DNA from: Cyclobacteriaceae bacterium | Lineage (GTDB): Bacteria; Bacteroidota; Bacteroidia; Cytophagales; Cyclobacteriaceae | NCBI GenBank assembly: GCA_012033595.1 | Contig: JAAUQL010000024.1 | Span: 1-60,070 of the forward strand | Length of the DNA: 60,070 bases | Direction of reading: 5' to 3' | In this document: positions 6,433-58,444 of the stretch, piece by piece | How the letters are laid out: each line of letters starts with the position of its first letter | Position numbering within the stretch: position 1 is the first letter of the stretch | The notes under the pieces: generated by a model | Told to the model about the DNA's origin: nothing | The model's input: only the letters and a program-made list of their open reading frames with translations | Databases searched by the model: none | Program-made: the position numbers and the translations under genes

Positions 6433-8831
6433 TTGAAACGAAAAAAGATAAAACCCAGGCGCAGGAAAAAAGCCCTGCTGCAGCCGCTTACATTTAGCAA
6501 AAAACCATGGCGCAAAATAGGACTCTATGTGCTGCTTGGCATCATTTGCTTTCCATTTATCATTTTGTTCTCCATCAAGACGGGCATCGTCGGCAATATG
6601 CCCGACAAAGATCAGCTACGCAGTATCCGAAATTTTGAAGCTTCGGAAGTTTATAGTGCCGACCACCAACTGTTGGGGCGCTATTATATTCAAAACCGCA
6701 TAGTGCTGGATTATGAGCACATCTCCAGCCATATCAAGGATGCACTCGTTGCCACGGAAGATGAGCGCTTTTACCAACACCACGGCATCGATTTCAAAAG
6801 CCTCCCCGGGTTTTTTTTAAAACCTTCTTACTGGGCGATAGAAGCGGGGGAGGTGGATCCACCATTACACAGCAGTTGGCCAAAAATATTTATCATCGCC
6901 AGCAATATGCTGTTTTTTCCATGTTAATGACCAAAATGCGTGAAATGCTCATTGCCAAAGACCTGGAAAGAATTTATAGCAAAAATGAAATATTGACATT
7001 GTATCTCAACACCGTCCCCTTTGGAGGCAATATTTTTGGCGTGGAAGCAGCCAGCCAACAATTCTTCTCCAAATCTGCCAAGGCAATTAACATTCAGGAA
7101 GCCGCCGTACTGATCGGAATGCTAAAAGCGACGACCTATTACAATCCGAAAAATAATCCAGAGGGGGCTCTTCGACGCAGAAATGTGGTTTTGGCTCAGT
7201 TGCATCGTACCGACAAGATCGGAAAACAAGAGCTTGATTCCCTCAAAAACCTGCCTATAGAATTGAAATACAAAAAAACAGATCAAAATGATGGACTGGC
7301 GACCTACTTTCGTGAGCAGGTAAGGCTTACCCTCAACAAACTAATTCCTCAGATCGCGGACAGCCTGGGCGAGAGCTACAACCTGTACACCGACGGACTT
7401 AAGATTTATACCACACTCGATTCACGGCTGCAAACTTTTGCCGAAAAGGCCGTGTACAAACACATGCGGCAGTTGCAGGAGACCTTTGATGTGCACTGGA
7501 AAGGCAGGACAAAACCCTGGGAAAACGACCGAAACCTGATGCACTTGTCTCTGAAGCAAAGTGGTGTCACAGACCGTCTGGCGGCCAGTGGCGTGCCCGC
7601 CGACTCTGTAAATTACTTTATGAATCTGAAAAAGGAAACAGAAGTGTATTCGTGGGCAGGCAAAGAAACGCACCTGATGAGCACCCTCGATTCTGTCAAA
7701 TTCTACCTCCGATTTTTGAATACCGGCTTTTTGTCGGTGGATCCGGCCACCGGCGAAGTAAAGGCATGGGTGGGTGGCATCAACCACCGTTTTTTTAAAT
7801 ATGACCATGTAAATGAACATTCAAAACGTCAGGTGGGCTCCGTCTTTAAGCCGATTGTATATGCAGCAGCTTTGGAGCAAGATGTATCACCCTGCGAATA
7901 CATAGAAGCAGAGCAGGAAAGCTACCGCGAAAAGGACAAAGAATGGAAGCCCGCCAATGCCGACAATGCCTACGAAGGAAAATATTCACTGGAAGGCGCC
8001 CTTACCGAATCGGTAAATACGGTATCGGTAAAGGTGCTGGAAAAGGCAGGGATAGACTTTACTGTCGCGCTTGCACGTGATATGGGCATCAGCAGTCAGG
8101 TACCCAAGGTGCCCTCTATTGCCCTGGGCACACCGAGCATTTCACTTATTGAAATGGTAAGGGCCTATTGCACTTTCGTGAATAAAGGAAAAAGTGTATC
8201 GCCATATTTTATTACAAAAATTGAAGACAAAGAAGGACGCGTGATATGGCAGCAGGCAAAACCAAAATCCAGACCGGTAATGTCGCTGGCTACCAGCCAG
8301 ATGATGATAGAAATGCTAAAAAATGTGGTTAATACCGGGACAGCCGCCCGCTTACGAAATACTTACAAACTACCTAACGATATCGCTGGAAAAACCGGCA
8401 CAACCCAGTCAAATGCCGACGGTTGGTTTATGGCCATGACCCCGGAGCTGGTCACTGGCATCTGGGTGGGAGGTGAATTTCCAGCCATTCATTTCAGGAG
8501 CACCGCACTAGGCCAGGGGGCAAATATGGCGTTGCCCATTTATGCGCTATTCCAACAGCAAATCAACAACAGTAGTCCTTTTGCCAAGCTGGCACGGGCA
8601 CGGTTTCCCAATCCACCGGCATCGGTACGCAACCAGCTCGACTGTGACCCTTTCAGGGAAGACGTGAATTTTTGGGAATCATTATTTGGTAAAAAGAAAG
8701 AAAAAATTGATGGCGGCGTGGCAGGAAGTGAAGAAGAAGGGGAGCGGCAATACTCCAAAAAACCAGTGCCGGAAAAAGAAGAAAAGGGAATCTTCAAAGG
8801 ATTGAAAAAGCTGTTCAAAAGGAAAGATTAG
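6433..8831 (+). pseudogene. Penicillin-binding protein 1A, split by a -1 frameshift in a T8 run
   Basis: This is a bifunctional class A PBP (GT51 glycosyltransferase plus transpeptidase) that polymerises and crosslinks peptidoglycan at the outer face of the inner membrane. A basic cytoplasmic tail and one membrane helix (about residues 35-55) lead into GT51. The first GT51 motif, ATEDERFYQHHGID, lies in the first frame. The second, GGGGSTITQQLAKN, lies in the -1 frame. Transpeptidase motifs are intact: GSVFKP (SxxK), SVN, KTGT. The break is at T8 (6811-6818); adding one T restores SLPGFFFKTFLLGD, which matches the usual family spacing. The tract also contains T TTT TTA, a classic -1 slippery heptamer, in the right phase. 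The start is TTG 6433, just after an in-frame stop. It is either an assembly error, phase variation, recoding or a true pseudogene. Confidence 0.88.
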
Positions 8832-8975
8832 TTGATGACGGCCAATGGTGGCGGCATGTACGTTGGTGGGTAGAATATACTTCGTTCTCAATGTCGTGCA
8901 TTATTCTTTCAGCTTTGCCGTGCATGCTCCCCTGTAAATCCCTAAATTGCCATAATCAAACCCATTTTCACAAAA

Positions 8976-9518
8976 ATGAACATCGAGACTTCAAGACTAA
9001 TACTAAGCGAGGTGAGTTGGGATGACGTAGATGATATCCACCATCTGCATTCCATCGCCGAAGTTGATGAATACAATACGCTGGGTATTCCTGCAAGTGA
9101 GGTGGAAACCAGAGAGATCATCAGGCCTGTCATGGAAGATCAGCAGTCGGAATGCAGAAAATTGTATATGTGGAAGATAGTGCGTAAAATCGAGGGGAAC
9201 TTTATTGGTGTAGCCGGTTTGATACTCTCAGCAGACCGTTTCAGATTGGGAGAAATTTACTACAAACTTTTGCCTTCTTCGTGGGGGCATGGGTATGCCA
9301 CAGAAGTAGGCAGGGCACTGATCAAATCTGGTTTCGAACATTTTAAACTACATAAAATCGAAGCCGGCGTTGCCACCGAAAATGAAAAATCTGTTAGGGT
9401 GTTAGAAAAACTCTCTATGCTGAGGGAAGGAGTGAGAAGAAAAATCCTGCCCATACGCGGTGAATGGAAAGACAGCTACCATTATGGTATTGTGGAAGAT
9501 GATCGGCGCAACTATTGA
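8976..9518 (+). CDS. GNAT-family N-acetyltransferase (RimJ/RimL-like)
   Basis: This protein of 180 residues would transfer an acetyl group from acetyl-CoA to an amine, possibly a protein N-terminus or small molecule. It begins with the RimJ/RimL-type ETSRLILSEVSWDD. The acetyl-CoA binding region lies around YYKLLPSSWGHGYATEVGRAL, which matches the Q/RxxGxG/A loop in form (WGHGYA). It continues with HKIEAGVATENEKSVRVLEK, a characteristic GNAT_3 segment. It stands alone on the + strand, about 145 bp after the PBP gene. The substrate is unknown. Confidence 0.9.
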   Translation: MNIETSRLILSEVSWDDVDDIHHLHSIAEVDEYNTLGIPASEVETREIIRPVMEDQQSECRKLYMWKIVRKIEGNFIGVAGLILSADRFRLGEIYYKLLPSSWGHGYATEVGRALIKSGFEHFKLHKIEAGVATENEKSVRVLEKLSMLREGVRRKILPIRGEWKDSYHYGIVEDDRRNY

Positions 9519-9650
9519 TTAATGAAAAGAGAAAATCTATTGATTTAAACTATTGCAAACGATTGCAGGATTTGTTTTCTTTCCGTTTTCAAATAGCTCA
9601 CTGTGGTATGGGAGCTTATTTTTTAATATTTGGTAAAACATAAATCTAAA

Positions 9651-10996
9651 ATGATGAATACAAACAGAAGAATTTTTTGCGCAAAGCAGTAGCCGGAGCC
9701 ACCGGTGCGGCCATCACAGGCACGGCGCTGGCTTCGTCAGCCAAAAGTTACGAAAAAATAATTGGCGCCAATGACCGGCTAAATGTCGCTATTATCGGCC
9801 TTGGTCGTAGGTTGGGGGCTTATTACGATCCCATTTCTCGTAAAGAAAGCAATGTGGAATTGACCTACCTTTGCGATGTGATGAAAAGCCAGCGCGAAAA
9901 AGCAGCTGCTAAGTTTTCCGAGCTTATTAAAAATAAGCCCAAGTTGGAAAATGACGTCCGTAAAGTACTCGAAGACCCCAAGCTCGATGCCATTTTCAAT
10001 GCCACACCAGATCACTGGCATACACCAGGAGCTTGCATGGCCATGGAGGCAGGCAAGCACGTCTATCTCGAAAAGCCATGTAGCCACAACCCCGCCGAAG
10101 GCGAGATTGTAGTAGCATTTCAACAAAAATATAATAAAGTAGTACAGATGGGCAACCAACAGCGCTCATCGCCAGAGTCTATAGAAATCATCAAAGACAT
10201 ACATAATGGGGTAATCGGCAAACCCTACAAGGCAGTGGCGTTCTATACCAATGGCAGGGGCGAAGTACCAATTCCTAAAAAGCAAGCGCCGCCCGAAGGG
10301 CTGGATTGGGATCTGTTTCAGGGACCTTCACCACGAAAACCCTATGAACACGACACCTGGGACTACAACTGGCACTGGTACGGATGGGATTTTGGGACAG
10401 CCGAAATGGGCAACAATGCCACTCACGAACTCGACGTGGCACGCTGGGCGCTCGATGTCGAGTACCCTCTTTATGTTAATGTAAATGCCGGAAAATACCA
10501 CTATGTAAATGATGGATGGAGTATGTATGATACTATGGAGGCGTTTTTCCACTTTGACAACGATCGCCTGATCAAATGGGATGGGCAAAGTCGGGAAGGA
10601 TACGAAACCTACGGAGCCGGTCGCGGTACCATTATTTATGGCAGCGAGGGCACAGTATTTGTTGACCGGGGTGGATATAAATTATACGACCTCAAAGGCA
10701 AACTGATAAGAGAGAAAAAAGGCTCAGGCGATGAAGGCGGCACCACACTGGGAGGTGGCGGAGGCATGACCACCCTCCATGCCATTAATTTTTTCGAGAC
10801 CATCAGGGGCAAGCAAAAGCTCACCTCCCCGATAGAGCAAGGCGTGGTAAGCCAAAACCTGACGCACTATGCCAATATTGCTTCCAGAATAGGTAAGGGA
10901 TTTGATGTGGACGTAAAAACCGGCAGAATCTTCGACCGGGATGCTATGGCCCTGTGGAGCAGGGAGTATGAGCCCGGTTGGGAGCCTAAGATTTAA
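9651..10996 (+). pseudogene. Tat-exported Gfo/Idh/MocA oxidoreductase, frameshifted in its signal peptide
   Basis: This is an NAD(P)-dependent sugar oxidoreductase of the Gfo/Idh/MocA family. The Rossmann motif is near VAIIGLGRRLG, the catalytic EKP motif is EKPCSHNP, and the C-terminal alpha/beta domain runs to the end. The ATG at 9651 opens with NRRIF and hits TAG at once after the T6 run at 9673-9678. Adding one T gives RRIFLRKAVAG, a textbook twin-arginine signal, read continuously into the main frame. So the true product is very likely Tat-exported, and the break is one missing T. Relatives in Bacteroidota and Planctomycetes act on glycosides, often as oxidation/keto-sugar enzymes; here the substrate is inferred only. 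Confidence 0.88.
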
Positions 10997-11014
10997 TTAA
11001 ATAATAAACATTGT

Positions 11015-11041
11015 AAAAAGCCTGGTAACTCCGGGCTTTTT
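11015..11041 (+). terminator. Rho-independent terminator after the Gfo/Idh/MocA gene
   Basis: AAAAAGCCTGG (11015-11025) pairs with CCGGGCTTTTT (11031-11041) around TAACT, with one G-U pair. The A and T flanks make it usable on both strands. It lies about 20 bp after the stop codon. Confidence 0.8.
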
Positions 11042-11155
11042 AATTTTATGGCCAGAAAGCCTCCATTTGGGAGTTGAACTCTTCATCTTCAATTTTTGTT
11101 TTCCTTGTGCATGGCAAAGCACAACCTTGCTCGTGTTACACTAAATCTTACTACG

Positions 11156-11368
11156 ATGAGCACCATGGAATTAACCCTCTACCTTTTGGCATTTATTGCC
11201 TATTTCGTACCATTTTATATCGCCCGATATCGACGTATTAGTGGACAACATCTGGTATTTTGGTTCAATCTACTGTTTGGATGGACATTGATCGCCTGGG
11301 CTATATTAATTGTAGTGGCACTGTCGGTGCACTCCGACAATTCGTCAAGACATAGTTACAGTGCCTAG
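11156..11368 (+). CDS. Superinfection immunity-like small membrane protein
   Basis: This protein of 70 residues has two membrane helices. The second carries FNLLFGWTLIAWAILIVVAL, the core pattern of the Imm_superinfect family named after the phage T4 Imm protein, which blocks DNA entry by later phages. Bacterial members are widespread and mostly not prophage genes, so a phage defence role is not established. The start is taken at ATG 11156 (MSTMELTL), where the hydrophobic segment begins. It stands alone with no phage genes around it. Confidence 0.8.
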   Translation: MSTMELTLYLLAFIAYFVPFYIARYRRISGQHLVFWFNLLFGWTLIAWAILIVVALSVHSDNSSRHSYSA

Positions 11369-11531
11369 CGTTTCACAGCCATTTTCAAATAACATAGCAC
11401 CTGACACTTCATTAGACTTTAGCTCTGCCGACGATCATATGCCTAATTTGATGTAAAAAAAATCAGGAAGTTGAGTTGCGACCCGGCCAGGAACCGTATT
11501 ACCTGGAGCGGGGAGTTTATGTCCTTTGCAG

Positions 11532-12251
11532 TTATTCAAAAATCAATCTGCCAAATTTTTCGTATTCATGGAAGGTCTTTTCTATTGCCTGCCACGCCCA
11601 GGTTTCCCGCTCACCACTATCGTAATCCATCCGGTAAAAATTGCCTCGCCATTCCGTGCCCGGTTTTGGCGGAACATTTTGCAGAGCCGTCAATAGTTTG
11701 TAAGGTATGAATATTTCCACGCTCCAGGCCTTGATTTTCTCACCCGGATCGGGGGTTCCTCCATGGATTTTCACCGCCTTTCTTATCTTTCTGTCGCCTT
11801 CGTAATGCCACGGCGACCAGCCAAAAAAAGTGCCCTGATCATTGGGAACAAGTATGGCTAATTCTGCGCCAAGCGGATTAATCTCATATTCAAAATACAG
11901 GGGCTGATTTATCCCTGTTTGCAGAAAAATTTCAAACACATCTCCGTTCCAAATATCGCCCTGGTCGGTGCGATACCTGGTAGAAATCAACCGATCTTCG
12001 CAGTGGCCAAGTACATATACACCGGTAGCCGAGTACATCATTTTTATTTGTGTCTTATAGGCGGCATTGTTGGCGCTTTGCAAAGTAGTCCATGGGATTT
12101 CGTCCCAATGCCCCTGGTCTCCATTACCATTCAATTCAAAGTCTTCGCATGGAGTAATGAGCAAAGTTGATTCATTAATATTTTGACTTATCGTTTTCAT
12201 AGGAATAATCAGCAGGGTAGTGATGATAAAATAATAGTTTAAAGTGTGCAT
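11532..12251 (-). CDS. Secreted CBM9-like carbohydrate-binding protein
   Basis: This protein of about 239 residues has an N-terminal hydrophobic export segment (MHTLNYYFIITTLLIIP). The rest is one domain similar to the family 9 carbohydrate-binding fold (CBM9_1/DOMON-like), with markers such as GHWDEIPWT, DIWNGDVFEIFL, YFEYEINPLGAE, AWSVEIFIPY and GTEWRGNFYRMD. Such stand-alone proteins are common in Bacteroidota and are thought to bind sugars or haem-like ligands at the surface; no catalytic domain is present. The start ATG 12251 is chosen so that the signal segment begins the protein. It is monocistronic and is transcribed toward the superinfection-immunity gene. Confidence 0.83.
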   Translation of the reverse strand: MHTLNYYFIITTLLIIPMKTISQNINESTLLITPCEDFELNGNGDQGHWDEIPWTTLQSANNAAYKTQIKMMYSATGVYVLGHCEDRLISTRYRTDQGDIWNGDVFEIFLQTGINQPLYFEYEINPLGAELAILVPNDQGTFFGWSPWHYEGDRKIRKAVKIHGGTPDPGEKIKAWSVEIFIPYKLLTALQNVPPKPGTEWRGNFYRMDYDSGERETWAWQAIEKTFHEYEKFGRLIFE

Positions 12252-12493
12252 GAGCAAAAGCGGAATTGTAATGCTAAATGTGGACAAATTAAAGCAAAGA
12301 AGTTGTATTTATTTTAACGGTTTTACAGTAAGGCAAAATAATTTGGTCTGTCGGTTTCTTATATAAACTTGATTAAAAAGGGAGGTAATTATAAGAAGAA
12401 AACATAAAAACTGATAAGATGGGGAGAATATTTGAGGGCATAGTTCTTTTTGATACCAAGCCGACCTGATATTATCATTGGTAATTATTGTTC

Positions 12494-12506
12494 GTTTTTA
12501 TCGATA
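12494..12506 (+). repeat. 13-bp direct repeat, copy 1
   Basis: GTTTTTATCGATA occurs here and again exactly at 12560-12572, 66 bp apart. Both contain the palindromic core TATCGATA. Their position upstream of the histidine kinase promoter suggests a pair of protein-binding sites. Confidence 0.5.
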
Positions 12507-12559
12507 TTTGAAAGAAATAATTAACCAGCTAAATGGGTTAGTTTATCGGACACTCGCCT

Positions 12560-12575
12560 GTTTTTATCGATAAAA
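12560..12575 (+). promoter_or_regulatory. Operator-like palindrome, copy 2 of the repeat
   Basis: The second copy of GTTTTTATCGATA extends here into a perfect 14-bp palindrome, TTTTATCGATAAAA (12562-12575). It sits about 12 bp upstream of the -33 element of the histidine kinase promoter, where an activator would be expected to bind. Confidence 0.45.
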
Positions 12576-12586
12576 TGTTATAAGCG

Positions 12587-12617
12587 ATTGATGATTAACA
12601 TAATAACTGTAACTTTG
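12587..12617 (+). promoter_or_regulatory. Promoter of the histidine kinase gene
   Basis: ATTG at 12587-12590, a 19-bp spacer and TAacTTTG at 12610-12617 match the Bacteroidota housekeeping promoter (TTTG, 19-21 bp, TAnnTTTG) with one mismatch. It predicts a leader of about 70 nt before ATG 12697. Confidence 0.65.
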
Positions 12618-12696
12618 AATCCATTCAGACCTACCTGCCACCAGCTACCTTTCAATTGTAACAGACAAACCATTAATTGAAAATGAAATATTAATT

Positions 12697-14241
12697 ATGC
12701 TGGCAAAGTTTTGGAATAATATAAGCAATGCTGGTATCGAACTTGAGCATAGCCAATCTGCGTCCAGATACATCATTCTTACCAACCGATTCGCATTTAT
12801 TTCCGGTTTAATCAGTTTCCTCGTGTTGGCCTTGCTGTATTGGAGTGCCGCTGACCAGGAGGTGAAGACCGCCTGGCTGTTTATATTATTTACCGGCATA
12901 GTGTTTTTTCTGGTGTTGTTCATCAACAAATATGGCCAACACGAACTGGCCAAATGGCTTATTTGCTGGCTCCCCGCTATTTTGGTCATTTTTTTGTCTA
13001 TCAGCGACAAGTCATTGAGCAAGCATATCAGCATTCAGGATTTTTTCTCATATCGTTTCTTTTTGATGGCCACGGTGATCATTCCACTTATGGTTTTTGG
13101 CACCTCCAATCCATTAAAATTGATTTTCAATCTTTTGCCAAGCTTTATTGGCACTGTGTTTTTCGATTATTTCCACCGGCCTTTTGGTTTGGCATTTAAT
13201 CAACTCGGCTATAATGACCCCAATTTTTATATTCTTGACATCATGATCGCCCTGGCCTACTTTGGTTTAGTTGGCTTTTTGCTCAACCAGGTGGTCATTT
13301 CCGAAAAGTTTGAACAAAAAATGAACGAACAACAGCAGGCTTTGCAAGAAAAGAACAGGGAGTTGGTTCATATGAATTCATTCATCAATGAGCAAAATTA
13401 TGAAATGAATGCCCAGGCCGACAGGCTGACCGAGAGCAGGGATGCGCTGTTGAAGGCGAGTCAGATCATCGAAAATCAAAAGCAACAATTGATCAATCAG
13501 AATAAAACGCTGGAAAAGCAGGTGGTGGACAAAACAAAGGATTTGTCTAGGGTAAACGAAGAGTTGATCATCATCAATAGCGAATTGCGCCAGTTCTCCC
13601 ATACATTATCGCATAATCTCAGGTCACCGGTGTCCACATTTCAGGGTTTGCTCAATCTCATAGATCGTAAAAACCTGAGTCAGGCCAACCTGGAGTTGCT
13701 GGATTATCTACACGATACTGTTCGCAAAATGCATGAGGTATTTTCTGATATGAACGAAATGCTTGAATTGCGCAATACACTATATCAATCTATCGAAGAG
13801 GTTGATCTACAGAAGTTGATTGATGAATTGTACAATATTTTCTATGCAGAAATGCAGGGCAACAATATTTCGTTCAAATATGATTTTAATGGCCAGAAGG
13901 TATTGAAGACCAATGAACGACGACTAAATGGTATCCTGTTCCACCTGATTTCCAATTCGATTAAGTTCCGTTCAGAATGCAGGCCTCCGGAGATAAATAT
14001 TAGCCTTAGAAAGATGGATGGCTACTACAGTATCGTGATTCGTGACAATGGGGTGGGCATAGACCTGGAAAAATACGGTCATAAGCTTTTCTATCCCTAT
14101 CAAAGGTTTCACTCATATAAATGTGGAAAGGGTCTGGGATTGTACCTGGTAAAACTTCAGACCGAATCGCTGGGTGGTAAAGTGATGGTTCGCAGCCAAC
14201 CCGATCGCTTTACCGAAGTGGAAGTGCAATTTTTATCATAA
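12697..14241 (+). CDS. Membrane-bound sensor histidine kinase
   Basis: This is a sensor kinase of 514 residues. Six membrane helices fill about residues 28-205 (for example FISGLISFLVLALLYWSA and IALAYFGLVGFLLNQVV). A long coiled coil follows (about 210-290). The dimerisation/phosphoacceptor box is FSHTLSHNLRSPV, with the acceptor His near residue 306. The ATP-binding domain has the N-box LISNSIKF, the G1 region RDNGVGID and the G2 region GKGLGLYLVK. There is no extracellular sensor domain and no receiver domain, so it may sense a membrane or intracellular signal. No response regulator gene is adjacent, so its partner lies elsewhere. It is preceded by a promoter with paired palindromic sites. 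Confidence 0.93.
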   Translation: MLAKFWNNISNAGIELEHSQSASRYIILTNRFAFISGLISFLVLALLYWSAADQEVKTAWLFILFTGIVFFLVLFINKYGQHELAKWLICWLPAILVIFLSISDKSLSKHISIQDFFSYRFFLMATVIIPLMVFGTSNPLKLIFNLLPSFIGTVFFDYFHRPFGLAFNQLGYNDPNFYILDIMIALAYFGLVGFLLNQVVISEKFEQKMNEQQQALQEKNRELVHMNSFINEQNYEMNAQADRLTESRDALLKASQIIENQKQQLINQNKTLEKQVVDKTKDLSRVNEELIIINSELRQFSHTLSHNLRSPVSTFQGLLNLIDRKNLSQANLELLDYLHDTVRKMHEVFSDMNEMLELRNTLYQSIEEVDLQKLIDELYNIFYAEMQGNNISFKYDFNGQKVLKTNERRLNGILFHLISNSIKFRSECRPPEINISLRKMDGYYSIVIRDNGVGIDLEKYGHKLFYPYQRFHSYKCGKGLGLYLVKLQTESLGGKVMVRSQPDRFTEVEVQFLS

Positions 14242-14330
14242 AATTTCATGGGTGTGAGGCCACTGTTCAAGCACCAAAAATCAAATAACAAATAATGATC
14301 AAAACCCAAAAGCCAAATGCTCAAACCCCT

Positions 14331-14405
14331 TGGATTTTGAATTTTTCGAAATTGGAATTTATTTGAGATTTGACCCTTGGGATTTGTGAATTTTCAATAG
14401 TGCCG
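14331..14405 (+). repeat. Intergenic dispersed repeat, copy A
   Basis: An AT-rich segment built of TTTGAATTTT/GAAATTGG-like units and ending GAATTTTCAATAGTGCCG. A shorter diverged copy at 23202-23262 shares the start TGGAnTTTGAATTTT, the middle GAAATTG and the end TGAATTTTCAnnAGnGCCG. The A-rich sequence just before it (14277-14330) is partly complementary, so a long imperfect hairpin is possible. Both copies follow the 3' ends of + strand genes. Confidence 0.5.
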
Positions 14406-14422
14406 TTAAGGACAGGACTAAG

Positions 14423-16353: not shown

Positions 16354-16641
16354 GTAAGGGAAAATATGAGCCTTGAATATACCAAGATTTGGCCTTAATT
16401 ATATCCGTCGTGATACCATAATTGTATAAAACCCATAAAATCCATTATAAATCCATGATATTATCAAGACATAATGCTTAAGGAATTTTATTCCCCATAC
16501 CGAGATGCAGCATTCAGGCTGGAATTTCTATGCTGTCAAAACGCCGTCAGGAGGATTTTTGGTATGAAATATTTTTCAATATTTTCGGATGCGAACTACA
16601 TTTATCTTAACAAAATCTACATGCATGACGTTTTTAGAGGA

Positions 16642-17928: not shown

Positions 17929-17966
17929 TACCGCCGCACCGTACCACGCTCTATCGGTTTTTCTTG

Positions 17967-20750: not shown

Positions 20751-20777
20751 GGCAATGGTAATTTTTGATTTTCAACT

Positions 20778-20787
20778 TTATCGATAA
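20778..20787. promoter_or_regulatory. Palindrome upstream of acnA
   Basis: TTATCGATAA is a perfect 10-bp palindrome 28 bp before the acnA start codon. The same core appears within the longer palindrome before the histidine kinase (12562-12575). It is a candidate operator only; the short length means chance is possible. Confidence 0.3.
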
Positions 20788-23157: not shown

Positions 23158-23201
23158 ATCTCATAATTACCGATCCACTACAAGGTTTGACCATAGCACC
23201 G

Positions 23202-36869: not shown

Positions 36870-36870
36870 A

Positions 36871-40055: not shown

Positions 40056-42413
40056 CTACTCATTCACTGCCTCAAACGCCACCGCAAGGCTCCTGCCCTG
40101 TTCGTCCGTGACATTGATCACATGCAGTCCAATTTCAGGAAAAAGACCCATTTGATGGGGCTGGCTTGTTTCTCCGACAAACTGATCGTCCAGATACCAA
40201 AACAAGCGTGCCCGGGCATTGCGGTGCGCTGCCTCAAAGATTACTTTGCCCGGATGTCCGTCTATTTCTATAGGTACAAATACTTTCGTGAAAGTCCTCG
40301 GATAGATCATTTCCATAGTCTCATTGCCCTGGGGCACACATCCTGGCAGATAATCAGGTGGCTCAGCGTAGTCTGCGTTGAATTTTTTGTAAAACCAGGC
40401 CTGTGCCGGGGGCAGCACAAACCATGGTTTTTGTGCCATTTTGTGTATGGGATAGCATATAGAGCTGACTTGGTGCTGTTTAGATTCATCCAGATTAAGC
40501 AAAACATGAAGTTGGCATGTTGGGGTGTTTGTGGCACTTTTGGCTATGGGCATCAGTTCCGTTTCGGGGCAGATGGCACTTGCTCTGCTTCCACTCTGTC
40601 TGCAAATGCGCATCATGTGTACATCTGCCACCGGCATCGGGAAGTTCGCCTCACCATCAAGGGTTTCGAAAATCCGAAACATCAGTGGGGCAGCAGCCAT
40701 CACCCCGGTCAGGTCTGGCCGTCCTTCACCATCGGCATTGCCAATCCATATTCCGACAAGGTAACGCTCGTTTAGTCCGATGGCCCAGGCATCTTTGAGC
40801 CCATAGCTGGTGCCTGTTTTCCAGGCGATGGACTGGCTGTTGCCAAATTGTTGCCAGTTAGATTCGGCATCGGGTCGGCGCAATTGCTGCATGGCCTTGA
40901 GCATATGCCAGGTGGCGGCAGCACTTACTTTGCCGCTGGATGTCATTTCACTTTTTAATGTAGCGCTGGAATTGATATAGTTCAAATTCCTGAATACGTG
41001 TGCATTATACCTGTTTGCTCCTTTTGAGTTGTTGAAATCATCCAGATTTCTCACCAGGGCGGCATACACTCCGGCTACTTCCCAGAGGGTGACTTCTCCC
41101 CCACCTAAAATCATCGAAAGTCCATAGTGCGCCGCGGGCTTGTCGAGGCTTTTAATGCCAAGCTGCACCAGGTCGTAGTGAAATTGTTCATAGCCATAGT
41201 CTCTGAGCAAACTAACGAAAGGAACATTGAGCGAACTGCGCAAAGCCAGATTGGCTGCTACCGCACCCTTAAATTGCTTGTCGAAATTTTGCGGAGCAAA
41301 GCCCTGGAAATATAGCGGAATATCCGGCAGCAGATTATAGGGCGTGATGATACCCCGGTCGATGGATAGGGCATAAAGAATGGGCTTTAACAAACTGCCC
41401 GGACTCCTTTTGCTGTTGATGATATCTACCTGTTGCCCATGATCTACCTTGCTGTTTTCTCTTACATTGCCCACATAGGCCAGCACTTCTCCGCTGTGGA
41501 TGTCGGCGACAATGGCGGCAGCGTTGTGAATTTCTTTGTATTGGCAAACCTGGTGATGTCTTTTAATTAACTCATTTACAGTATTTTGAGTATTGTACAT
41601 TAATGTAGATTTTACCTTTCGCTGCTCCAGCCCATCTTTGATACACCGATCAACAAGGTGTGGAGCCATATCGGGCAAGGGGGCGGGTTTAGACGGTATC
41701 GCCTCATCGATAGCTAAGCGATAGGTCGTATGGTCGATGGTCTGGTTTTCAAATAGTTCTTTTAAAATACGGTTTCTCCTGGTCTTCAGCCTGTCATCGT
41801 TGGTGCCGGGAAAAGCCAGCCCGGGTGCATTGGGCAATACGGCAAGTCCTGCTGCTTCTGCCCAAGAGAGTTCAAAAGCTGAGCGACCATGGTATCGCCA
41901 CGAAGCCGCCGAGATACCAACCACATTGCCACCAAACGGGGCATTGTTGGCATAGAGGGCCAGGATTTCCTTTTTGGAATAGCGCATCTCGATACGCAGT
42001 GCCAGCCATATTTCCCTCATTTTTTGCGAAACTGTGCGGGGCTTGTTGCCCATTGCCATCCTAGCAATTTGCATGGTGATGGTACTACCCCCGCTCACTG
42101 TTCGCTTCGCTTCGAGGTTTTGCCTTATGGCACGAAATATCGCCAGGGGGTTGATACCCGGATGTGTGTAAAAGTGCCGGTCTTCGAACTGCAACAGACA
42201 GGTGATATAATTGGCTGGCAACGAATCGACCGGAGGAAAACGCCATTGACCATCGGCGGCGATGCGCGCACCAAGTAGTTGAGCTTCACGACTTTCCAAT
42301 ACGGTAGAAAATGGCTGGTCGAATAGCGGCTTGGGAATAGGCATGAAAATCCCGAGCAAAAAAAACACGATCAATCCGGCAAGGAGGTAAAGCTTGTTTT
42401 TACTGATTGACAT
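40056..42413 (-). CDS. pbpC: Penicillin-binding protein 1C
   Basis: This class A PBP of 785 residues has an N-terminal membrane anchor (LYLLAGLIVFFLLGIFM), a GT51 glycosyltransferase domain with FEDRHFYTHPGINP and GGSTITMQIARM, a transpeptidase domain with SLLK (SxxK), SLN and KTGTSYG, and the PbpC-type C-terminal domain (about 690-785). The full length matches the family. PbpC often neighbours an alpha-2-macroglobulin gene (yfhM); none is present here. It is a monocistronic gene on the minus strand. Confidence 0.96.
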   Translation of the reverse strand: MSISKNKLYLLAGLIVFFLLGIFMPIPKPLFDQPFSTVLESREAQLLGARIAADGQWRFPPVDSLPANYITCLLQFEDRHFYTHPGINPLAIFRAIRQNLEAKRTVSGGSTITMQIARMAMGNKPRTVSQKMREIWLALRIEMRYSKKEILALYANNAPFGGNVVGISAASWRYHGRSAFELSWAEAAGLAVLPNAPGLAFPGTNDDRLKTRRNRILKELFENQTIDHTTYRLAIDEAIPSKPAPLPDMAPHLVDRCIKDGLEQRKVKSTLMYNTQNTVNELIKRHHQVCQYKEIHNAAAIVADIHSGEVLAYVGNVRENSKVDHGQQVDIINSKRSPGSLLKPILYALSIDRGIITPYNLLPDIPLYFQGFAPQNFDKQFKGAVAANLALRSSLNVPFVSLLRDYGYEQFHYDLVQLGIKSLDKPAAHYGLSMILGGGEVTLWEVAGVYAALVRNLDDFNNSKGANRYNAHVFRNLNYINSSATLKSEMTSSGKVSAAATWHMLKAMQQLRRPDAESNWQQFGNSQSIAWKTGTSYGLKDAWAIGLNERYLVGIWIGNADGEGRPDLTGVMAAAPLMFRIFETLDGEANFPMPVADVHMMRICRQSGSRASAICPETELMPIAKSATNTPTCQLHVLLNLDESKQHQVSSICYPIHKMAQKPWFVLPPAQAWFYKKFNADYAEPPDYLPGCVPQGNETMEMIYPRTFTKVFVPIEIDGHPGKVIFEAAHRNARARLFWYLDDQFVGETSQPHQMGLFPEIGLHVINVTDEQGRSLAVAFEAVNE

Positions 42414-44131: not shown

Positions 44132-44232
44132 ACTTTTGAATTTGCCTAAAATTATAATTAGTCCGGCTATTCTCTTACTATTATTATTTCAGTTCCGTTA
44201 TACGTACATCATCGGTCGAAAAGGATTTTAAA

Positions 44233-45498: not shown

Positions 45499-45619
45499 TA
45501 CCAATAGTGTGCATGAGTCCGGGGCATCAATAATTACATCCTTAATGAGCTGTCCATCAGCCATTTCCACGCTTTTGGCTATTGCATTCGGGGGATAATA
45601 ATTACCGACACACCTGCAA

Positions 45620-47461: not shown

Positions 47462-47465
47462 AGCA

Positions 47466-48527: not shown

Positions 48528-48578
48528 GGTCGAAAAGCGGAATTGATTATTTTTGAGCCAGCGCAAAGTTCTACAATT

Positions 48579-50458: not shown

Positions 50459-51954
50459 CGCTAAGTAAGGTATTTGACAAGGCGAATCTCAGTATTTGCC
50501 TTTTTTTATTTATACTCTTTGCACCCTATTTGATTGGCGCACAGTCGCAAACACCCTCCATTACGGACATTAGCGAAGCCTACTGGCAATTCTTCAATTT
50601 CCAACTCGACTCCACCCGGATTGCCCTTGCCAGCCTGCCCAATCTACCGGAAACCTTTCACCTCGATATCCTGCTCACTTCCACCCAGGCCATCCTTCGC
50701 GACGATGCTACAGCTTGTACGACATGCAATGACCAGGAAAACCGCCTGCTGGAAAAATTATCAAAGTTTGAAAATGAATTCGCAACATCTGACTTCAATT
50801 ATCTCAAGGCTGAGATCAGACTACAATGGGCACTGATCAAATTAAAAAACAATGAGGAACTTGCCGCCTTTTGGAACCTGAAACAAGCCTACTCCATAGC
50901 GACCTCTAATGTCAGCAACTATCCGGAACATCTGCCCACTGTCAGAACCCTGGGGCTGATGCACGTATTGCTTGGCGCCTTTCCCGAAAAGTATAAGTGG
51001 ATACTACCACTCTTTGGCATGGAAGCCAATATTTCGCAGGGTCTGAGGCAGATCGACAAGGCTCAAAATGACCGGGGATTTGCCTCTGTGGAGAGCAGCC
51101 TCATCCTCGCACTCATTCATACCTACTGGCTCAGCGACCCGGGCAGAGCGGTCGAAATATTGAAACCTCTCAGGCAAAAGCAGCAGCTGTTGGTGTGCGA
51201 TTATGTATTGTCACTTGCCTTGATGAAAGATGCGCGAAGTGAGGAAGCGTTGAGCATAATAAATGAAACCGCGACCAGTCACACCCAGCCATTTGCTATT
51301 CCACAGTTCTATTATTTGCTGGGTGAGATTTATTTGCAAAAAGGACAGTTTGAAGCCTCGATTGCTAATTATCGATTGTTCATTCGGCAGTATGAAGGTA
51401 ACAACCTGAAAAAAGACAGTTACTACAAAATGGGGGTTAGCCAGACACTGATGAACAATGTATCTGCGGCCCGGCAAAACTTCGAAAAATCTGCCTCATT
51501 AGCCTGGGCGGAGATCGAAGCTGATAAAAATGCCCGATATGCAGTTGAAAATGAACAGATTACCTGTGCAGCATTGTACAAAATGCGATATGCCACCGAT
51601 GGCGGTTATTACGAAAAGGCTTTAAAAGCCCGGCATTCCATCGATCCGACCACCCTCAATGCACATGACCGGTGCGAATACCACTATCGAACGGCCAGAC
51701 TGCACCACAAAATGGATCGCCTTGAAGCTGCAAAAGCGGCATATCAAAAAGCCATAGATACACAATTGCAAAATGACTGGTATTTTGCACCCAATGCTGC
51801 CCTTCAATTGGCAGGGATGTTTTACGATGACAACCAATTGGACAACGCCAAGACATTTCTGAAAAGGATAAACGAATATGATGGATACCCCTATCAGGGC
51901 AGCATCAGCCAACAGGCCGCCGCCCTTGGCAAAAAACTGGCGATAGCAGATTGA
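50449..51954 (+). CDS. Secreted TPR-repeat protein
   Basis: This protein of 501 residues has a hydrophobic N-terminal export segment (LSICLFLFILFAPYLIGAQ) and tetratricopeptide repeats, most clearly in the C-terminal half (YLLGEIYLQKGQFEASIANY, then GRYHYRTAR-type units such as YHYRTARLHHKMDRLEAAK). TPRs bind other proteins. It overlaps the zinc-ribbon gene by 10 bp, so its translation is coupled, but the partner is unknown. It ends about 75 bp before dnaB, which is read toward it. Confidence 0.88.
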   Translation: MAIALSKVFDKANLSICLFLFILFAPYLIGAQSQTPSITDISEAYWQFFNFQLDSTRIALASLPNLPETFHLDILLTSTQAILRDDATACTTCNDQENRLLEKLSKFENEFATSDFNYLKAEIRLQWALIKLKNNEELAAFWNLKQAYSIATSNVSNYPEHLPTVRTLGLMHVLLGAFPEKYKWILPLFGMEANISQGLRQIDKAQNDRGFASVESSLILALIHTYWLSDPGRAVEILKPLRQKQQLLVCDYVLSLALMKDARSEEALSIINETATSHTQPFAIPQFYYLLGEIYLQKGQFEASIANYRLFIRQYEGNNLKKDSYYKMGVSQTLMNNVSAARQNFEKSASLAWAEIEADKNARYAVENEQITCAALYKMRYATDGGYYEKALKARHSIDPTTLNAHDRCEYHYRTARLHHKMDRLEAAKAAYQKAIDTQLQNDWYFAPNAALQLAGMFYDDNQLDNAKTFLKRINEYDGYPYQGSISQQAAALGKKLAIAD

Positions 51955-52030
51955 AACCTGATTTATCCATGCTAACTGATCACATCGGCAAAAATGCAAG
52001 CTGACGCAAGGCTTTGAATATTAAAAAAAC

Positions 52031-53602
52031 CTAAAATGGAACATTGCCACCAGATGGATTAAAATCTCCACCGGTGCCGGGGTTATTGGCTTTGCTTTGG
52101 AAGGTGATGGTATTGGTTTCTTTATTGAATTGGCCTTCGAAATCGCCACCGGAGGGAAAGCCGCCACCAAAATGCCCCCCGTTGTCCAGGTCGCAAAATT
52201 TAGTGAATTTGCCGATAAACTTGAGCCGTACGGTATCGAGCGATCCGTTTCTGTGCTTAGCGATAATCACCTCTCCTACCCCCTGCACACTATTGCCCTC
52301 TTCGTCGGCAGTAATGCCATAATACTCAGGCCGGTAAAGGAAAAGTACCATATCGGCATCTTGCTCTATCGAACCAGATTCCCTGAGGTCAGAGAGTTGA
52401 GGTTTTTTGTCGCCACCCCTTACTTCCACAGCCCGGCTTAGCTGCGACAGCGCAATGATGGGAATATTGAGCTCTTTTGCGATGTTTTTGAGCGATCGGG
52501 ATATGGATGCAATCTCTTGTTCCCTGTTGCCCGCTCCACCACCATTCTTGCTGCTATCGCCCGACATCAGCTGCAGGTAGTCTATAATGATGAGTTCGAC
52601 GCCGTGTTGGGCTACTAATTTCCTTGCTTTGGCGCGCAACTCCAGAATGGTGAGCGCCGGGGTATCGTCTATAAAAATAGGCGCATCGGCCAGCTTGGCA
52701 GTTTTGTGGGTGAGCTGCTCCCACTCATATTCTTCCAGATTTCCTTTCTTTATTTTCTCACTTTCCAGCTCTGCTTCGGCAGAAATCAACCTGTTTACCA
52801 ACTGAATGCTCGACATTTCCAGCGAAAATATGGCCACAGGTTTCTTAAATTCTACTGCGGCATTGCGCATGGCCGAAACCACAAAGGCTGTCTTACCCAT
52901 ACCAGGCCGCGCCGCGATAATGACCATATCAGACTTTTGCCAACCCGAAGTGACCCTGTCAAGGGCGGTAAATCCCGTAGGGATACCGGTGAGTCCATCG
53001 CCTTGCAGCTTTTTGATTTCCAGTTCCTTCATGGCTTCGTGCATAATGGAAGCCATATTGGCGTAATTTTTACGGATATTGATCTCTGAGACTTCAAAAA
53101 GCGATTGCTCGGTTTTGTCCAGAAGTGAAAAAACATCTACAGTGTCTTCATAGGCATCGTGATGTATTTCCGAAGCTATCCTGATCAGTTCCCTCTTGAT
53201 GGCCTTTTCTATGATAATACGCGCATGTGACTCGATGTGCGCCGCTGAGCTAACTTTGGATGTCAGTTCGGTGATGTAGAAGGCCCCTCCCACAAAATCA
53301 AGTTTGCCTTTCTTGCGCAGCAGGTTGGTGACGGTAAGCAAATCGACCGGTTCGGAATTGTTGAACAAGTCAACTATGGTTTGGAATATTTCTTTGTGAC
53401 TTTCTTTGTAAAAGGTGTCGGGCTTTAAGATATCAATCACATTGGTGAGAGCGTCCTTTTCCAACATCAGTGCGCCGAGAACCGCCTCTTCCAAATCAAG
53501 GGCTTGTGGGGGCAATTTTCCCAGGCTAAGGCCTATTTCTTTGCTCACAAATGTTCTCGACTTGCTACCTAACCGCACTGACTGAATATTTCCTGATTCC
53601 AT
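52031..53602 (-). CDS. dnaB: Replicative DNA helicase
   Basis: This hexameric 5'-3' helicase of 523 residues unwinds the replication fork. The N-terminal DnaB domain begins at LGKLPPQALDLEEAVLGALMLE. The RecA-like motor has Walker A ARPGMGKTAF, Walker B IIIDYLQLMSG, and the arginine-finger region, and ends with the DnaB-typical LSQLSRAVE and DLRESGSIEQDADMVLFLYRPEYYG. A Gly/Asn-rich C-terminal tail of about 60 residues is extra. No intein insertion is present. It is monocistronic. Confidence 0.97.
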   Translation of the reverse strand: MESGNIQSVRLGSKSRTFVSKEIGLSLGKLPPQALDLEEAVLGALMLEKDALTNVIDILKPDTFYKESHKEIFQTIVDLFNNSEPVDLLTVTNLLRKKGKLDFVGGAFYITELTSKVSSAAHIESHARIIIEKAIKRELIRIASEIHHDAYEDTVDVFSLLDKTEQSLFEVSEINIRKNYANMASIMHEAMKELEIKKLQGDGLTGIPTGFTALDRVTSGWQKSDMVIIAARPGMGKTAFVVSAMRNAAVEFKKPVAIFSLEMSSIQLVNRLISAEAELESEKIKKGNLEEYEWEQLTHKTAKLADAPIFIDDTPALTILELRAKARKLVAQHGVELIIIDYLQLMSGDSSKNGGGAGNREQEIASISRSLKNIAKELNIPIIALSQLSRAVEVRGGDKKPQLSDLRESGSIEQDADMVLFLYRPEYYGITADEEGNSVQGVGEVIIAKHRNGSLDTVRLKFIGKFTKFCDLDNGGHFGGGFPSGGDFEGQFNKETNTITFQSKANNPGTGGDFNPSGGNVPF

Positions 53603-54009
53603 ATGTAAATGATACGAAGCTTAGCTTCAAAAAATTTTAATGATGCTGTAATCTTGATTAATAATAAAGTAGCGCAATGACGATTTTTAGAAGATTTGCT
53701 CAAGCGGGGCAATTATGCCCTATAAGCCTTGTGTGATTGTGCTGCACAAACATAGACCAAATGCCGTCCTTCTGAAAAGATATCAGGCTATAGTTTTGAT
53801 TTAACTTTTCAACAGGTATTTGACGCTATCCACATGGTTCATCCACATTTTGTCCGATAGACCCGATTGAAAAAGCAAGAAGCGGCCAGTGGAATAAGAG
53901 TGGGCAAATTGATTCAAAAACGCAATAAGGGACTTTTGGGAGGCTGGTAGATGAAAGCTTTGTCACCACATCAAATTGTGCTATCTTTGAAATCCAAATT
54001 AGCTCATAG
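53603..54009. other. Intergenic region between divergent dnaB and the Mpl-like ligase
   Basis: About 405 bp. The right end holds the promoter described separately. No reading frame in the rest looks like a gene. Confidence 0.4.
53959..53989 (+). promoter_or_regulatory. Canonical Bacteroidota promoter of the Mpl-like gene
   Basis: TTTG at 53959-53962, a 19-bp spacer and TAtcTTTG at 53982-53989 match the TTTG/TAnnTTTG promoter consensus at every fixed position. The predicted start lies a few bases downstream, leaving a leader of about 15 nt before ATG 54010. Confidence 0.85.
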
Positions 54010-55392
54010 ATGACTTTAAAAAATAATGAAAAAGTACACTTTATCGCCATTGGCGGAAGTGTAATGCACAGCCTGGCCATCGCCCTCAAAATGAAGGGTC
54101 TTACCGTTACTGGTTCTGACGATAGCATTTATGACCCTTCGCGACAGCGATTGGCTGAGCATGGCCTTCTTCCTGAAAATTTTGGCTGGGATGCCGCTCG
54201 CATTACTCCCGATCTGGATGCGGTAATTTTGGGGATGCATGCCAAAGATGACAACCCCGAACTGATCAGGACCCGCGAACTGGGAATCCCGATTTATTCA
54301 TTCCCCGAGTATATTCGAAAGCAATCGGACGACAAGCAAAGAATCGTAATAGCAGGAAGCCATGGCAAAACCACCATTACAGCCATGATCATGCACGTGC
54401 TCAACTACGCCAAACGCGATTTTGACTATGTGGTAGGAGCCTACCTGGAAGGCTTTAACAACATAGTAAAACTATCAGATGCACCCATTATCATAATAGA
54501 AGGCGATGAGTACTTTTCTTCAGCATTGGACAAAACTCCCAAATTCCTAAATTACGAGCATCACCTGGGCCTCATCAGTGGCATTTCCTGGGATCATATC
54601 AATGCCTTTAAGACGGTGGACGATTATGTAAAACAATTTGAAATGTTTGCCGATGCCACGCCAAAAAGCGGTACACTTATTTTTTGCGAAGAAGATGATA
54701 TGGCCATGGTTATAGCCAGCAACCAACGCATCGATGTGGTACAGTTGCATTATTCTGTGCATCCCTATGTGATCAAAAACGAAATTACCTATCTGAAGAC
54801 CTCCAATGGCATGGTACCGGTGAAGATATTTGGTCAGCACAATATGCTCAACCTCAATGGCGCCAAAAAGCTATTGAGCAGGATCGGCATTACCGAAGAG
54901 GTATTTTATGAGGCCATCAGTTCTTTTGAAGGGGCGTCGAAACGTTTACAATTGCTACAAAAAAATAAGAGCGTGGCAGTGTTTCTTGATTTTGCCCACG
55001 CACCATCCAAAGTGGAAGCCACCACTTCGGCGATAAAAGAGCGCTATGCCACCCGCCACCTGGTGGCCTGCCTCGAGTTACATACCTTCAGCAGCCTCAA
55101 CAAAGATTTTATTTCCAGCTACCAATACACACTGCAAAGTGCTGATGAAGCATGCATTTATTTCAATCCGCACAACAACAAGCAGAGCACCGAAACAAAA
55201 ATAAATGTGAAAGACGTGGAAAATGCCTTCAATTTTCCGGGACTAAAAGTATTTACAGAAATAGAAAACCTCGAGAAATATTTGCTTGAAAAAAATTGGG
55301 GCAACTCCAATTTGCTATTGATGAGCTCAGGAAACTTTGGCAACATCGATCTTAAATCATTGGCTGCCAATATCGTAGCCTCAACAAACTAA
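54010..55392 (+). CDS. mpl: Mpl-type UDP-MurNAc-tripeptide ligase
   Basis: This Mur ligase of 460 residues resembles Mpl, which attaches recycled murein tripeptide to UDP-MurNAc. The N-terminal domain has IAIGGSVMHSLAIAL, the ATP site is AGSHGKTTITAMIMH, the carbamylated-Lys/metal region follows near IIIEGDEYFSSALDKTPKF (typical Mpl signature), and the C-terminal domain starts near DFAHAPSKV. The length fits Mpl (about 450-460) rather than MurC. It is followed by the exonuclease gene after 7 bp. Together with PBPs and Bax-like hydrolase it points to murein recycling. Confidence 0.94.
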   Translation: MTLKNNEKVHFIAIGGSVMHSLAIALKMKGLTVTGSDDSIYDPSRQRLAEHGLLPENFGWDAARITPDLDAVILGMHAKDDNPELIRTRELGIPIYSFPEYIRKQSDDKQRIVIAGSHGKTTITAMIMHVLNYAKRDFDYVVGAYLEGFNNIVKLSDAPIIIIEGDEYFSSALDKTPKFLNYEHHLGLISGISWDHINAFKTVDDYVKQFEMFADATPKSGTLIFCEEDDMAMVIASNQRIDVVQLHYSVHPYVIKNEITYLKTSNGMVPVKIFGQHNMLNLNGAKKLLSRIGITEEVFYEAISSFEGASKRLQLLQKNKSVAVFLDFAHAPSKVEATTSAIKERYATRHLVACLELHTFSSLNKDFISSYQYTLQSADEACIYFNPHNNKQSTETKINVKDVENAFNFPGLKVFTEIENLEKYLLEKNWGNSNLLLMSSGNFGNIDLKSLAANIVASTN

Positions 55393-55399
55393 ACCATTA

Positions 55400-56205
55400 A
55401 TGAATTTAAAACTTAAGAACCCCCTGGCTTTCTTCGATTTAGAAACCACCGGCATCAACATCACACACGACCGAATAGTAGAGATATCGATTTTGAAAAT
55501 CTCGCCCAATGGCGAAGAAGAATCCCTAACCCAACTGATTAACCCAGGTTTTCCCATTCCATTGGAGAGCAGTCTGATACATGGCATTTATGACGACAAT
55601 GTGAAGGAGGCGCCGCAATTCAAAGATGTGGCCAAATCTCTGGTGAAATTCCTGGAAGGATGCGATCTCGGAGGTTTTAATATCCTCAAATTTGACATTC
55701 CGGTACTGGTAGAAGAATTTTTGCGCACAGGAATCAACTTCGACATCAGCAAACGCAAATTGATCGATGCACAAAAGATTTCCATCTGATGGAAAAACGT
55801 AACCTCTCTGCCGCCTACCAGTTTTATTGCGGTCAGACGCTCGAAAATGCCCACAGTGCCGAGGCAGACACCAAGGCTACTTACGAGATATTCAAAAAGC
55901 AAATCGAACGCTATGACGGCCAGGAAGTAGAAGATATGAAAGGTGCCAAACTTGGCGTGATATGTAACGATATGGAGGCTGTTCATCAGATTACGCTTCA
56001 GAAAATGGTCGATCTGGCCGGCCGTATAGTCTTTGATGATGAAGGCAACGAGGTATTCAATTTTGGCAAGCACAAAGGCAGAAAAATAGTGGATATTCTC
56101 GAAAAAGAACCCATGTACTACGACTGGATTCAAAAGAATGATTTTACGCTCGATACCAAAAGGAAGCTTACGGAAATAAAACTAAGGCAATTCAATAAAA
56201 AATGA
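55400..56205 (+). pseudogene. DnaQ-like 3'-5' exonuclease, split by a -1 frameshift
   Basis: This DEDD-type 3'-5' exonuclease has Exo I AFFDLETTG (metal Asp/Glu), Exo II near LGGFNILKFDIPVL and Exo III AHSAEADTKATYEIF. A C-terminal DUF3820-like module follows (FNFGKHKGRKIVDILE). The gene breaks at a T3 run (55779-55781): the first frame ends AQKISI-stop, whereas one added T reads AQKIFHLMEKRNLSAAY into the second frame at 55789, which is the expected family sequence. It lies 7 bp after mpl, so it shares its transcript. Read as an intact gene, it would proofread or repair DNA/RNA ends. Confidence 0.88.
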
Positions 56206-56267
56206 GTATTCTACTTACCAGACTTCATCATTTTTTATAATTCATATCTTTTTTTGCATTGCGCACT

Positions 56268-58444
56268 ATGGGCAAAACCATTATCGTATCCAACAGACTT
56301 CCCATCAAAATCGTACACGAAGACGATTCGTTTTACTATGTACCTAGCGAAGGCGGTCTGGCTACCGGGTTGAGTTCCATTTATAAAGAAGGAGAAAACC
56401 TATGGATAGGCTGGCCTGGACAAAGCATAAAAAAACCAGAGGAAAAAACGCAGATCACCAAAGACCTGAAAGAGGAAAACATGATCCCTGTTTTCCTTAC
56501 AAAAAATTGATCGAAGATTTTTACGAAGGTTTTAGCAACGATACCATCTGGCCTATTTTCCATTATTTCCTTCAATATGCAAATTTCGACCATAATCTAT
56601 ATCAAGCCTATGTAGAGGCGAACAAGCTCTTTTGCGATGCCATAGTGGAGGTAGCCGAAGATGGCGATACCATCTGGATACATGACTACCAACTGCTCTT
56701 GTTGCCTCGCATGGTCAGAAAGCTGCTGCCTAATGCAGGGATAGGTTTCTTTCAGCATATTCCTTTTCCATCTTACGAGGTATTTAGAATGATGCCCTGG
56801 CGAAAGAGGATTTTGCGCGGCATGTTGGGCGCGGACCTCATCGGCTTCCATACCTACGACGATATGCGGCATTTCTTATCTTCGGTCAGCAGGCTGGTAG
56901 GCATACCCAATTCGAGTGGCAGGATAGAAACCGGCAACAGGATCATTGAAGTGGACTCCTTTCCCATGGGAATAGATTACCATAAATATGCCGTGGCAGC
57001 GGCCTCGCCCAAGACCATAGATCAAGAGATAAAATTCAGGTCCTCTCTGGGCAATCAGAAGTTGATAGTGTCCATCGACCGGCTTGACTATTCCAAAGGA
57101 CTACCCAGGCGCCTGCGGGCATTCGAAATGTTCCTGAAGAAATATCCTGAATTTGAGCAAAAGGTGTCTATCATTATGATAGTGGTGCCCTCACGCGACA
57201 ATGTAGGCAAATACAAGGCGCTCAAAGAAGAGGTGGATCTGCTGGTGGGCCGCATCAACGGCAACTTTGGCATGCTCAACTGGACGCCAATCCACTATTT
57301 CTATCGCTCCTTCGATCTTGAATCGCTATCAGCTTTTTACAGAATGGCTCACGTGGCGCTGGTTACACCCATGCGCGATGGCATGAACCTGGTGTGCAAG
57401 GAATATATCGCCAGTAAGCTGGATAAAACCGGCGTACTGATCCTCAGCGAAATGGCAGGAGCCTCCAAGGAATTGTCGGATGCCATCCTCATCAACCCCA
57501 ACAACACCGAGCAGGTGGTAGAGGCCATTTACAAGGCGCTCACCATGCCCGAGGAGGAGCAGATTATGCATATCAGCATTATGCAAGACACCCTGAAGCG
57601 ATACAACATTCACCATTGGGTGAAAATGTTTATGGATCGCCTTCATTTTGTTTTAGAACTTCAACAATCTATGGCTACTAAAAAGCTCGACGAACAGACA
57701 GGCAAAGGAATAAAAGAACAATACGACCTGGCACACACGAGGATGCTTTTCCTCGATTATGATGGTACTTTGACAGGATTTCAGCCGGAACCTCAAATGG
57801 CCAAGCCCGACAAGACGCTTATACAGATGCTCCTCAATCTGACTTCCGATGATAAAAACCGCGTGGTAATCATCAGTGGCAGAGATAAAGAAACACTCGA
57901 TTCCTGGTTGGGGCACCTGCCGCTGGATATCATCGCCGAGCATGGAGTTTGGCTCAAAGAAAGAGGCACCAGGTGGCAAACCATAGCCAAATTGAAAAGT
58001 AGTTGGAAAAGTGAATTCAGACCGGTGCTCGATGCCTACGTCAATCGCACCCCGGGTTCATTTATCGAAGAAAAAGATCATTCGCTGGTTTGGCACTTTC
58101 GCAAAGTAGAAACCGGACTGGGCGAACTCAGATCACGAGAGCTCACCAGCCATCTCAAATACCTGTCGACAGGCAAAAACCTGCAAGTACTGGAAGGCGA
58201 TATGGTGGTAGAAGTGAAAAATGCGGATGTAAACAAAGGTAGCGCAGCACAAAAATGGCTGGACACCTTCGATCATGAATTTACGCTGGCTCTTGGTGAT
58301 GACTGGACAGACGAAGACACTTTTAAAGCCATGCCCTCCGATGCGGTCACCATCAAAGTGGGAAATTCCTCTTCCGTAGCCAAATTCAATGTGCCTTCAT
58401 TTAAAGAAGCCCGTGCCTTTTTGAAAACCCTTTCTGATACATAA
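56268..58444 (+). pseudogene. Fused trehalose-6-phosphate synthase/phosphatase, split by a -1 frameshift
   Basis: This is a bifunctional enzyme that makes trehalose from UDP-glucose and glucose-6-phosphate. The OtsA half (about 1-470) has VSNRLPIKI, SEGGLATGL, HDYQLLLLPRMVR and GFFQHIPFPSYE. The OtsB phosphatase half follows with the HAD motif LFLDYDGTLTGF and the acidic end GDDWTDEDTF. The break is at A6 (56501-56506): the first frame ends LTKN-stop; adding one A restores KKLIEDFYEGF into the main frame. The start ATG 56268 (MGKTIIV) is typical of the family. The site A AAA AAT just before TGA could in principle allow -1 slippage. Confidence 0.9.

Follow-up and report, generated by a model that had tools for sequence, protein, structure and literature searches.

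Single-base frame breaks in four conserved genes of a Cyclobacteriaceae draft genome are most probably deletion-biased consensus errors

Four conserved genes in the stretch of DNA analysed here (the window, which is the whole 60,070-base contig C42 of draft genome G000) are each interrupted by a change of reading frame. This raises the question of whether the bacterium has lost these genes or whether the draft misrepresents them. A first-pass annotation had preferred assembly error to gene decay, and our analysis upholds that preference: breaks lacking one base recur across the sampled genome, are nearly absent from same-genus controls, and also split rpoC, leuS and secA. Judging from sequence comparisons, we consider it very probable that the four breaks are consensus sequence errors and not mutations; in the bacterium itself, the four window genes are most likely unbroken.

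The draft comprises 5,746,938 bases in 234 contigs, with an estimated completeness of 97.24% and contamination of 2.58%. A sample of 59 pieces totalling 1,053,285 bases, the window included, was used for the genome-wide comparisons; its GC content is about 44%. Six same-genus genomes, labelled G001-G006, were compared at the level of single genes, and three of them served as genome-wide controls, with samples of 685,118 bases for G001, 400,000 for G002 and 382,502 for G004. Among the best 80 of 438 loci, the closest named matches of OtsAB are metagenome-assembled genomes of uncultured Cytophagales, Cyclobacteriaceae and Bacteroidetes, with 79-83% amino-acid identity.

Three-frame translation confirms that all four genes are disrupted, each by one frame change of net -1, and bears out the earlier observation that all four changes are -1 and none is +1 (Table 1). 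Alignment with relatives, which had been put forward as a check, shows the versions of all four genes in the relatives examined reading through in one frame. More specifically, the two halves of each gene were searched in 116 loci of relatives and others, and a locus was counted if both halves lay on the same strand and less than 1,500 bases apart. The halves share one frame in 27/27 counted loci for PBP1A, in 23/23 for the DnaQ-like exonuclease and in 80/80 for OtsAB, out of 116 searched in each case. The Gfo/Idh/MocA gene was left out of this test because its first half is too short; in the eight loci listed, from six same-genus genomes (two places occurring twice), the twin-arginine motif and the Rossmann domain are joined by one unbroken frame. 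The body of this gene is 80-86% identical in five same-genus genomes and 61% identical in G005. The open frame of PBP1A measures 793-799 aa in G001, G002, G004 and G005, and 597 aa in G003, where the match starts from query residue 44. Wherever a piece of a broken gene has sufficient length for a Pfam scan, it matches part of a family expected for that gene. A programmed frameshift was considered and rejected: the relatives read in one frame, and there is no shared stop-linked slip site.

Table 1. Pieces of the four interrupted genes and the sites of their frame changes (window coordinates)
Feature	Position	Strand	Evidence
PBP1A-type class A penicillin-binding protein, first piece (transglycosylase start)	6433..6804	+	Pfam Transgly PF00912, E 6.6e-10, profile 5-48
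C4 run holding the PBP1A frame change (net -1)	6804..6807	+	best split 6805-6806; R-V kept in 10/10 relatives' rows
PBP1A-type protein, second piece (remaining transglycosylase part plus transpeptidase)	6819..8831	+	PF00912 profile 74-177, PF00905 (scanned from 6876)
Gfo/Idh/MocA frame change (net -1), at an A2T6 stretch within the twin-arginine signal	9671..9678	+	three-frame translation; relatives in one frame
Gfo/Idh/MocA oxidoreductase, gene body	9677..10996	+	Pfam PF01408 (GFO_IDH_MocA), E 1.3e-16 (scanned from 9680)
DnaQ-like 3'-5' exonuclease, first piece	55400..55780	+	Pfam RNase_T PF00929, E 5.6e-14
T3 run where the DnaQ frame shifts by net -1	55779..55781	+	split interval of 5 bases around the run; relatives continuous
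DnaQ-like exonuclease, second piece	55780..56205	+	Pfam ExoX-like_C PF20600, E 7.5e-10
OtsAB (trehalose-6-phosphate synthase/phosphatase), first piece	56259..56504	+	Pfam Glyco_transf_20 PF00982, profile 2-82
A6 run where the OtsAB frame shifts by net -1	56501..56506	+	split at the run edge, one cut within tolerance
OtsAB, second piece	56507..58444	+	PF00982 profile 86-472, Trehalose_PPase PF02358

To place each break, the two frames were translated to a cut of variable position, marked by X, and every such cut was scored against the best relative. The positions proposed earlier are correct for the DnaQ-like gene (T3) and OtsAB (A6), close for the Gfo/Idh/MocA gene, and wrong for PBP1A, where the sole cut within tolerance falls at 6805-6806, upstream of the T8 run (6811-6818) that had been named. 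In 10/10 printed rows of relatives the residues S-[L/M/Y]-x-R-V are kept before the phenylalanines; because this conserved stretch needs the frame change before T8, the break cannot be T8 itself. The claim that one added A or T restores each gene accordingly fails for PBP1A, as its break lies in a C4 run. The DnaQ and OtsAB breaks do lie in A/T runs and the Gfo/Idh/MocA break in an A/T stretch. In the latter gene the T run has a length of 6 in four of six same-genus genomes, as in the window, and the length difference therefore lies just upstream of T6.

The rest of the window contains further genes. Of 40 other ORFs, 34 match a Pfam family and six match none, and no fifth frame-split gene was seen among these 40 in the Pfam scan. 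One of the products (40056-42413, minus strand) is another bifunctional penicillin-binding protein, this one unbroken; it has a BiPBP_C domain and is probably PBP1C-like. At the contig start, an IS91-type transposase (163-2239, minus strand; Y2_Tnp, Zn_Tnp_IS91) adjoins a phage-type integrase.

Whether the breaks are particular to the window was addressed by translated searches with ORFs of relatives, in which clusters that change frame were counted per compared bases. This protein-guided scan gave 31 clusters in 211,438 compared bases of the draft, against 1 in 172,681 for G001, 1 in 68,602 for G002 and 2 in 98,549 for G004; the four control frame changes, from 340 kb of three same-genus genomes, are themselves doubtful. 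An earlier, smaller scan had yielded 20 clusters in 156,420 bases of the draft, 0 in 98,216 of G001 and 0 in 75,500 of G004. Net change was -1 modulo 3 in 27/31 clusters of the draft. After removal of two antisense duplicates and one poor alignment, 24 breaks were retained, spread over 17 of the 59 pieces, with three in the window. The four clusters with an extra base consist of one antisense cluster across a gene junction in the window, two weak alignments, and one obtained with a G001 reference ORF for which G004 shows a frame change as well. The protein-guided count corresponds to one base lost in about every 9 kb of coding DNA.

A count free of reference proteins comes from a three-periodic coding model with frameshift states, which learned from the long ORFs of the genome to which it was applied; pieces in which N made up at least half of the bases were excluded. 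With a first setting (penalty -18) only 15/116 planted deletions and 8/116 planted insertions were found, and because of this low recall the model was re-tuned before the comparison. At the setting used, 90/153 missing and 53/153 extra bases planted in G001 and G004 were recovered. In 864,787 coding bases of the draft, the model then called 96 missing and 15 extra bases. The three control genomes gave 31 and 20 in 1,268,322 bases, so that 21.1 and 13.6 calls would be expected in the draft. The weaker recall of extra bases is far too small to produce this imbalance. Within the window, three of the five calls at the main setting are true breaks, the other two are ordinary overlapping genes, and the Gfo/Idh/MocA break was missed; such a background of overlapping genes is common to the controls too. 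Corrected for recall, the model excess means that one base is lost in about every 7 kb of coding DNA.

Genes that a cell cannot dispense with are informative here. Eight families (rpoC, leuS, secA, dnaE, valS, gyrA, ileS and rpoB) were searched in the draft and in G001, G002 and G004. Three of them are split in two frames in the draft and lie in one frame in all three relatives: rpoC (956+515 aa; relatives 1439-1448 aa), leuS (190+803 aa; 924-956 aa) and secA (963+151 aa; 1121-1137 aa). Between equal model positions, the leuS span of the draft is one base shorter than in all three relatives, and so is the secA span if the model is ungapped there; the rpoC span exceeds that of G001 and G004 by two bases, equivalent in frame to one missing base. 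The family searches in the draft listed neither another rpoC nor another full leuS, but a secA C-terminal fragment occurs also at the start of contig C140. The draft holds dnaE (1,397 aa), valS (883), gyrA (844) and ileS (1,108) whole, and its rpoB spans two contigs, one piece having an internal stop. In the relatives 23/24 essential genes are whole, the exception being dnaE of G002, a shorter single frame of 1,237 aa with a frame change near its 3' end (L261, near 18242); it is the only shortened essential gene among the controls.

No cell lives without RNA polymerase beta', leucyl-tRNA synthetase or SecA, and the breaks in rpoC, leuS and secA are therefore not real as written. Essential genes are split and the excess is one-sided, which together argue that the breaks are deletion-biased consensus errors; the four breaks of the window have the same form as those in rpoC, leuS and secA. 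Further fragments of dnaE, of a valS-like synthetase and of secA lie on C159, C181 and C140, some with internal stops; these are perhaps foreign contigs in the bin. Synthetase-like genes on C136 and C187 have frames shorter than those of relatives (209 and 531 versus 685-703 aa, and 428 versus 500 aa).

The first-pass annotation had attributed the breaks to homopolymer undercalling. This holds for the 17 of 24 retained breaks that touch a run of at least 4 (21% expected); the other seven touch no such run. The longest run at the breaks averages 4.2, versus 2.7, and an average of 4.2 was reached in 0/2,000 random draws. Runs of A or T make up 15 of the 17 runs touched, which is no more than the 86% A/T share of bases in such runs genome-wide. 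Nor was a depletion of long runs found: A/T runs of 8 occur at 174 per Mb in the draft versus 133, 167 and 198 in three comparison sets, and A/T runs of 9 at 48 per Mb versus 23, 37 and 12. A collapse of all long runs is thus rejected. Runs of 4-6 are where the errors concentrate, and 'undercalling of long homopolymers' is too simple a description; a deletion-prone consensus that favours short runs at a low rate fits better.

The ends of the contigs bear on how the draft was built. The first ~137 bases of the window contig are also found near the ends of several other contigs of the draft, and window positions 2172-2298 share an exact 127-base match with the start of contig C163. This overlap suggests that the draft may be a de Bruijn assembly with k near 127; such a k would fit short reads better than long reads. 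Near-identical contig ends (for example L140, L142, L147, L151 and L189) differ by single-base gaps about as often as by mismatches, and gaps between shared ends would fit indel-prone reads.

Other readings have to be weighed against consensus error. The bin might hold a mixture of strains, the breaks arising where slightly different strains or copies were joined at repeats. Shared contig-end stretches do differ (8 pairs from 64 ends, with 11 mismatches and 9 gap positions over 1,016 aligned bases), and the additional dnaE, valS-like synthetase and secA fragments hint at foreign contigs. Such joins, however, should create plus-one changes as often as minus-one changes, whereas the observed excess is one-sided; they should also add substitutions, yet gaps alone separate three of the eight end pairs. 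We therefore hold a strain mixture to be very unlikely. Real decay, in which independent single-base deletions destroyed the genes, is an extremely unlikely account. Each break, as written, would inactivate its gene, and homopolymer runs are natural deletion hot spots. Decay would nonetheless have to produce a -1 break per ~7-9 kb of coding DNA without a matching plus-one excess and to strike single-copy rpoC, leuS and secA as well. It would also have to leave a protein identity to the best relative of 61-84% on both sides of the break at the three window sites found by the protein-guided scan, and the same-genus genomes compared do not have the pattern.

A living lineage could in principle tolerate missing bases through pervasive ribosomal frameshifting or transcriptional slippage. 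The preference of the breaks for runs, where slippage occurs, speaks for this, and rescue by slippage has been discussed for the poly-A tract frameshifts of insect endosymbionts. A genome of 5.75 Mb is, however, no reduced symbiont; the same-genus genomes do not show the pattern, and seven of 24 breaks touch no run of at least 4. Moreover, the first stop follows the break at a distance of anywhere between 1 and 54 codons (mean 15.8), and no slip site is tied to a stop. Rescue of this kind appears scarcely credible. It is equally hard to believe that this lineage, unlike its same-genus relatives, truly has hundreds of one-base deletions, including those in rpoC, leuS and secA, and lives by jumping frame at short runs.

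In the preferred reading, consensus error, single bases would drop out in the reads or in a polishing step, chiefly where a homopolymer run is about 4 to 6 long, and these losses would pass into the consensus about once in every 7 to 9 kb of coding DNA throughout the sampled genome. We infer that reads would show the longer form at the break sites. Nothing biological would then remain to explain; this would be an ordinary artefact, and the finding is useful only as a warning. False losses would be recorded if the draft were used for claims about gene content, pseudogenes or pathways, and the estimated rate, taken with the recall, suggests that several hundred genes could be affected. Because the draft is still scored as 97.24% complete, completeness scores do not reveal the fault. 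A quick test is to look for a one-sided excess of missing-base frame changes relative to same-genus controls.

Comparable patterns are known elsewhere. As in insect endosymbionts, frame changes linked to runs fall in genes that relatives keep, but endosymbiont genomes are small and AT-rich, whereas the present one has 5.75 Mb and its sample a GC content of about 44%. Draft assemblies offer further parallels. In the sections of the Kastor study of nanopore assemblies drawn on here (PMC12007338), deletions peak after runs of 4-5, with A and T affected most and a few outside runs. The draft resembles those assemblies in that single-base deletions dominate, some lie outside runs and genes appear split; unlike here, the platform of that study is known and truth genomes exist. 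An excerpt of a further report (PMC9600527) counts 124 to 189 ORFs missing or truncated in nanopore-heavy assemblies of one genome. For Ion Torrent assemblies, the part of the report used here (PMC12046094) describes frameshifts at runs of mean length 5.5, with adenine most affected. Frameshifts at short runs in draft assemblies are thus common to both; the Ion Torrent data, in that part, concern insertions as well as deletions and come from isolates, whereas here there is an excess of deletions only, in a draft genome.
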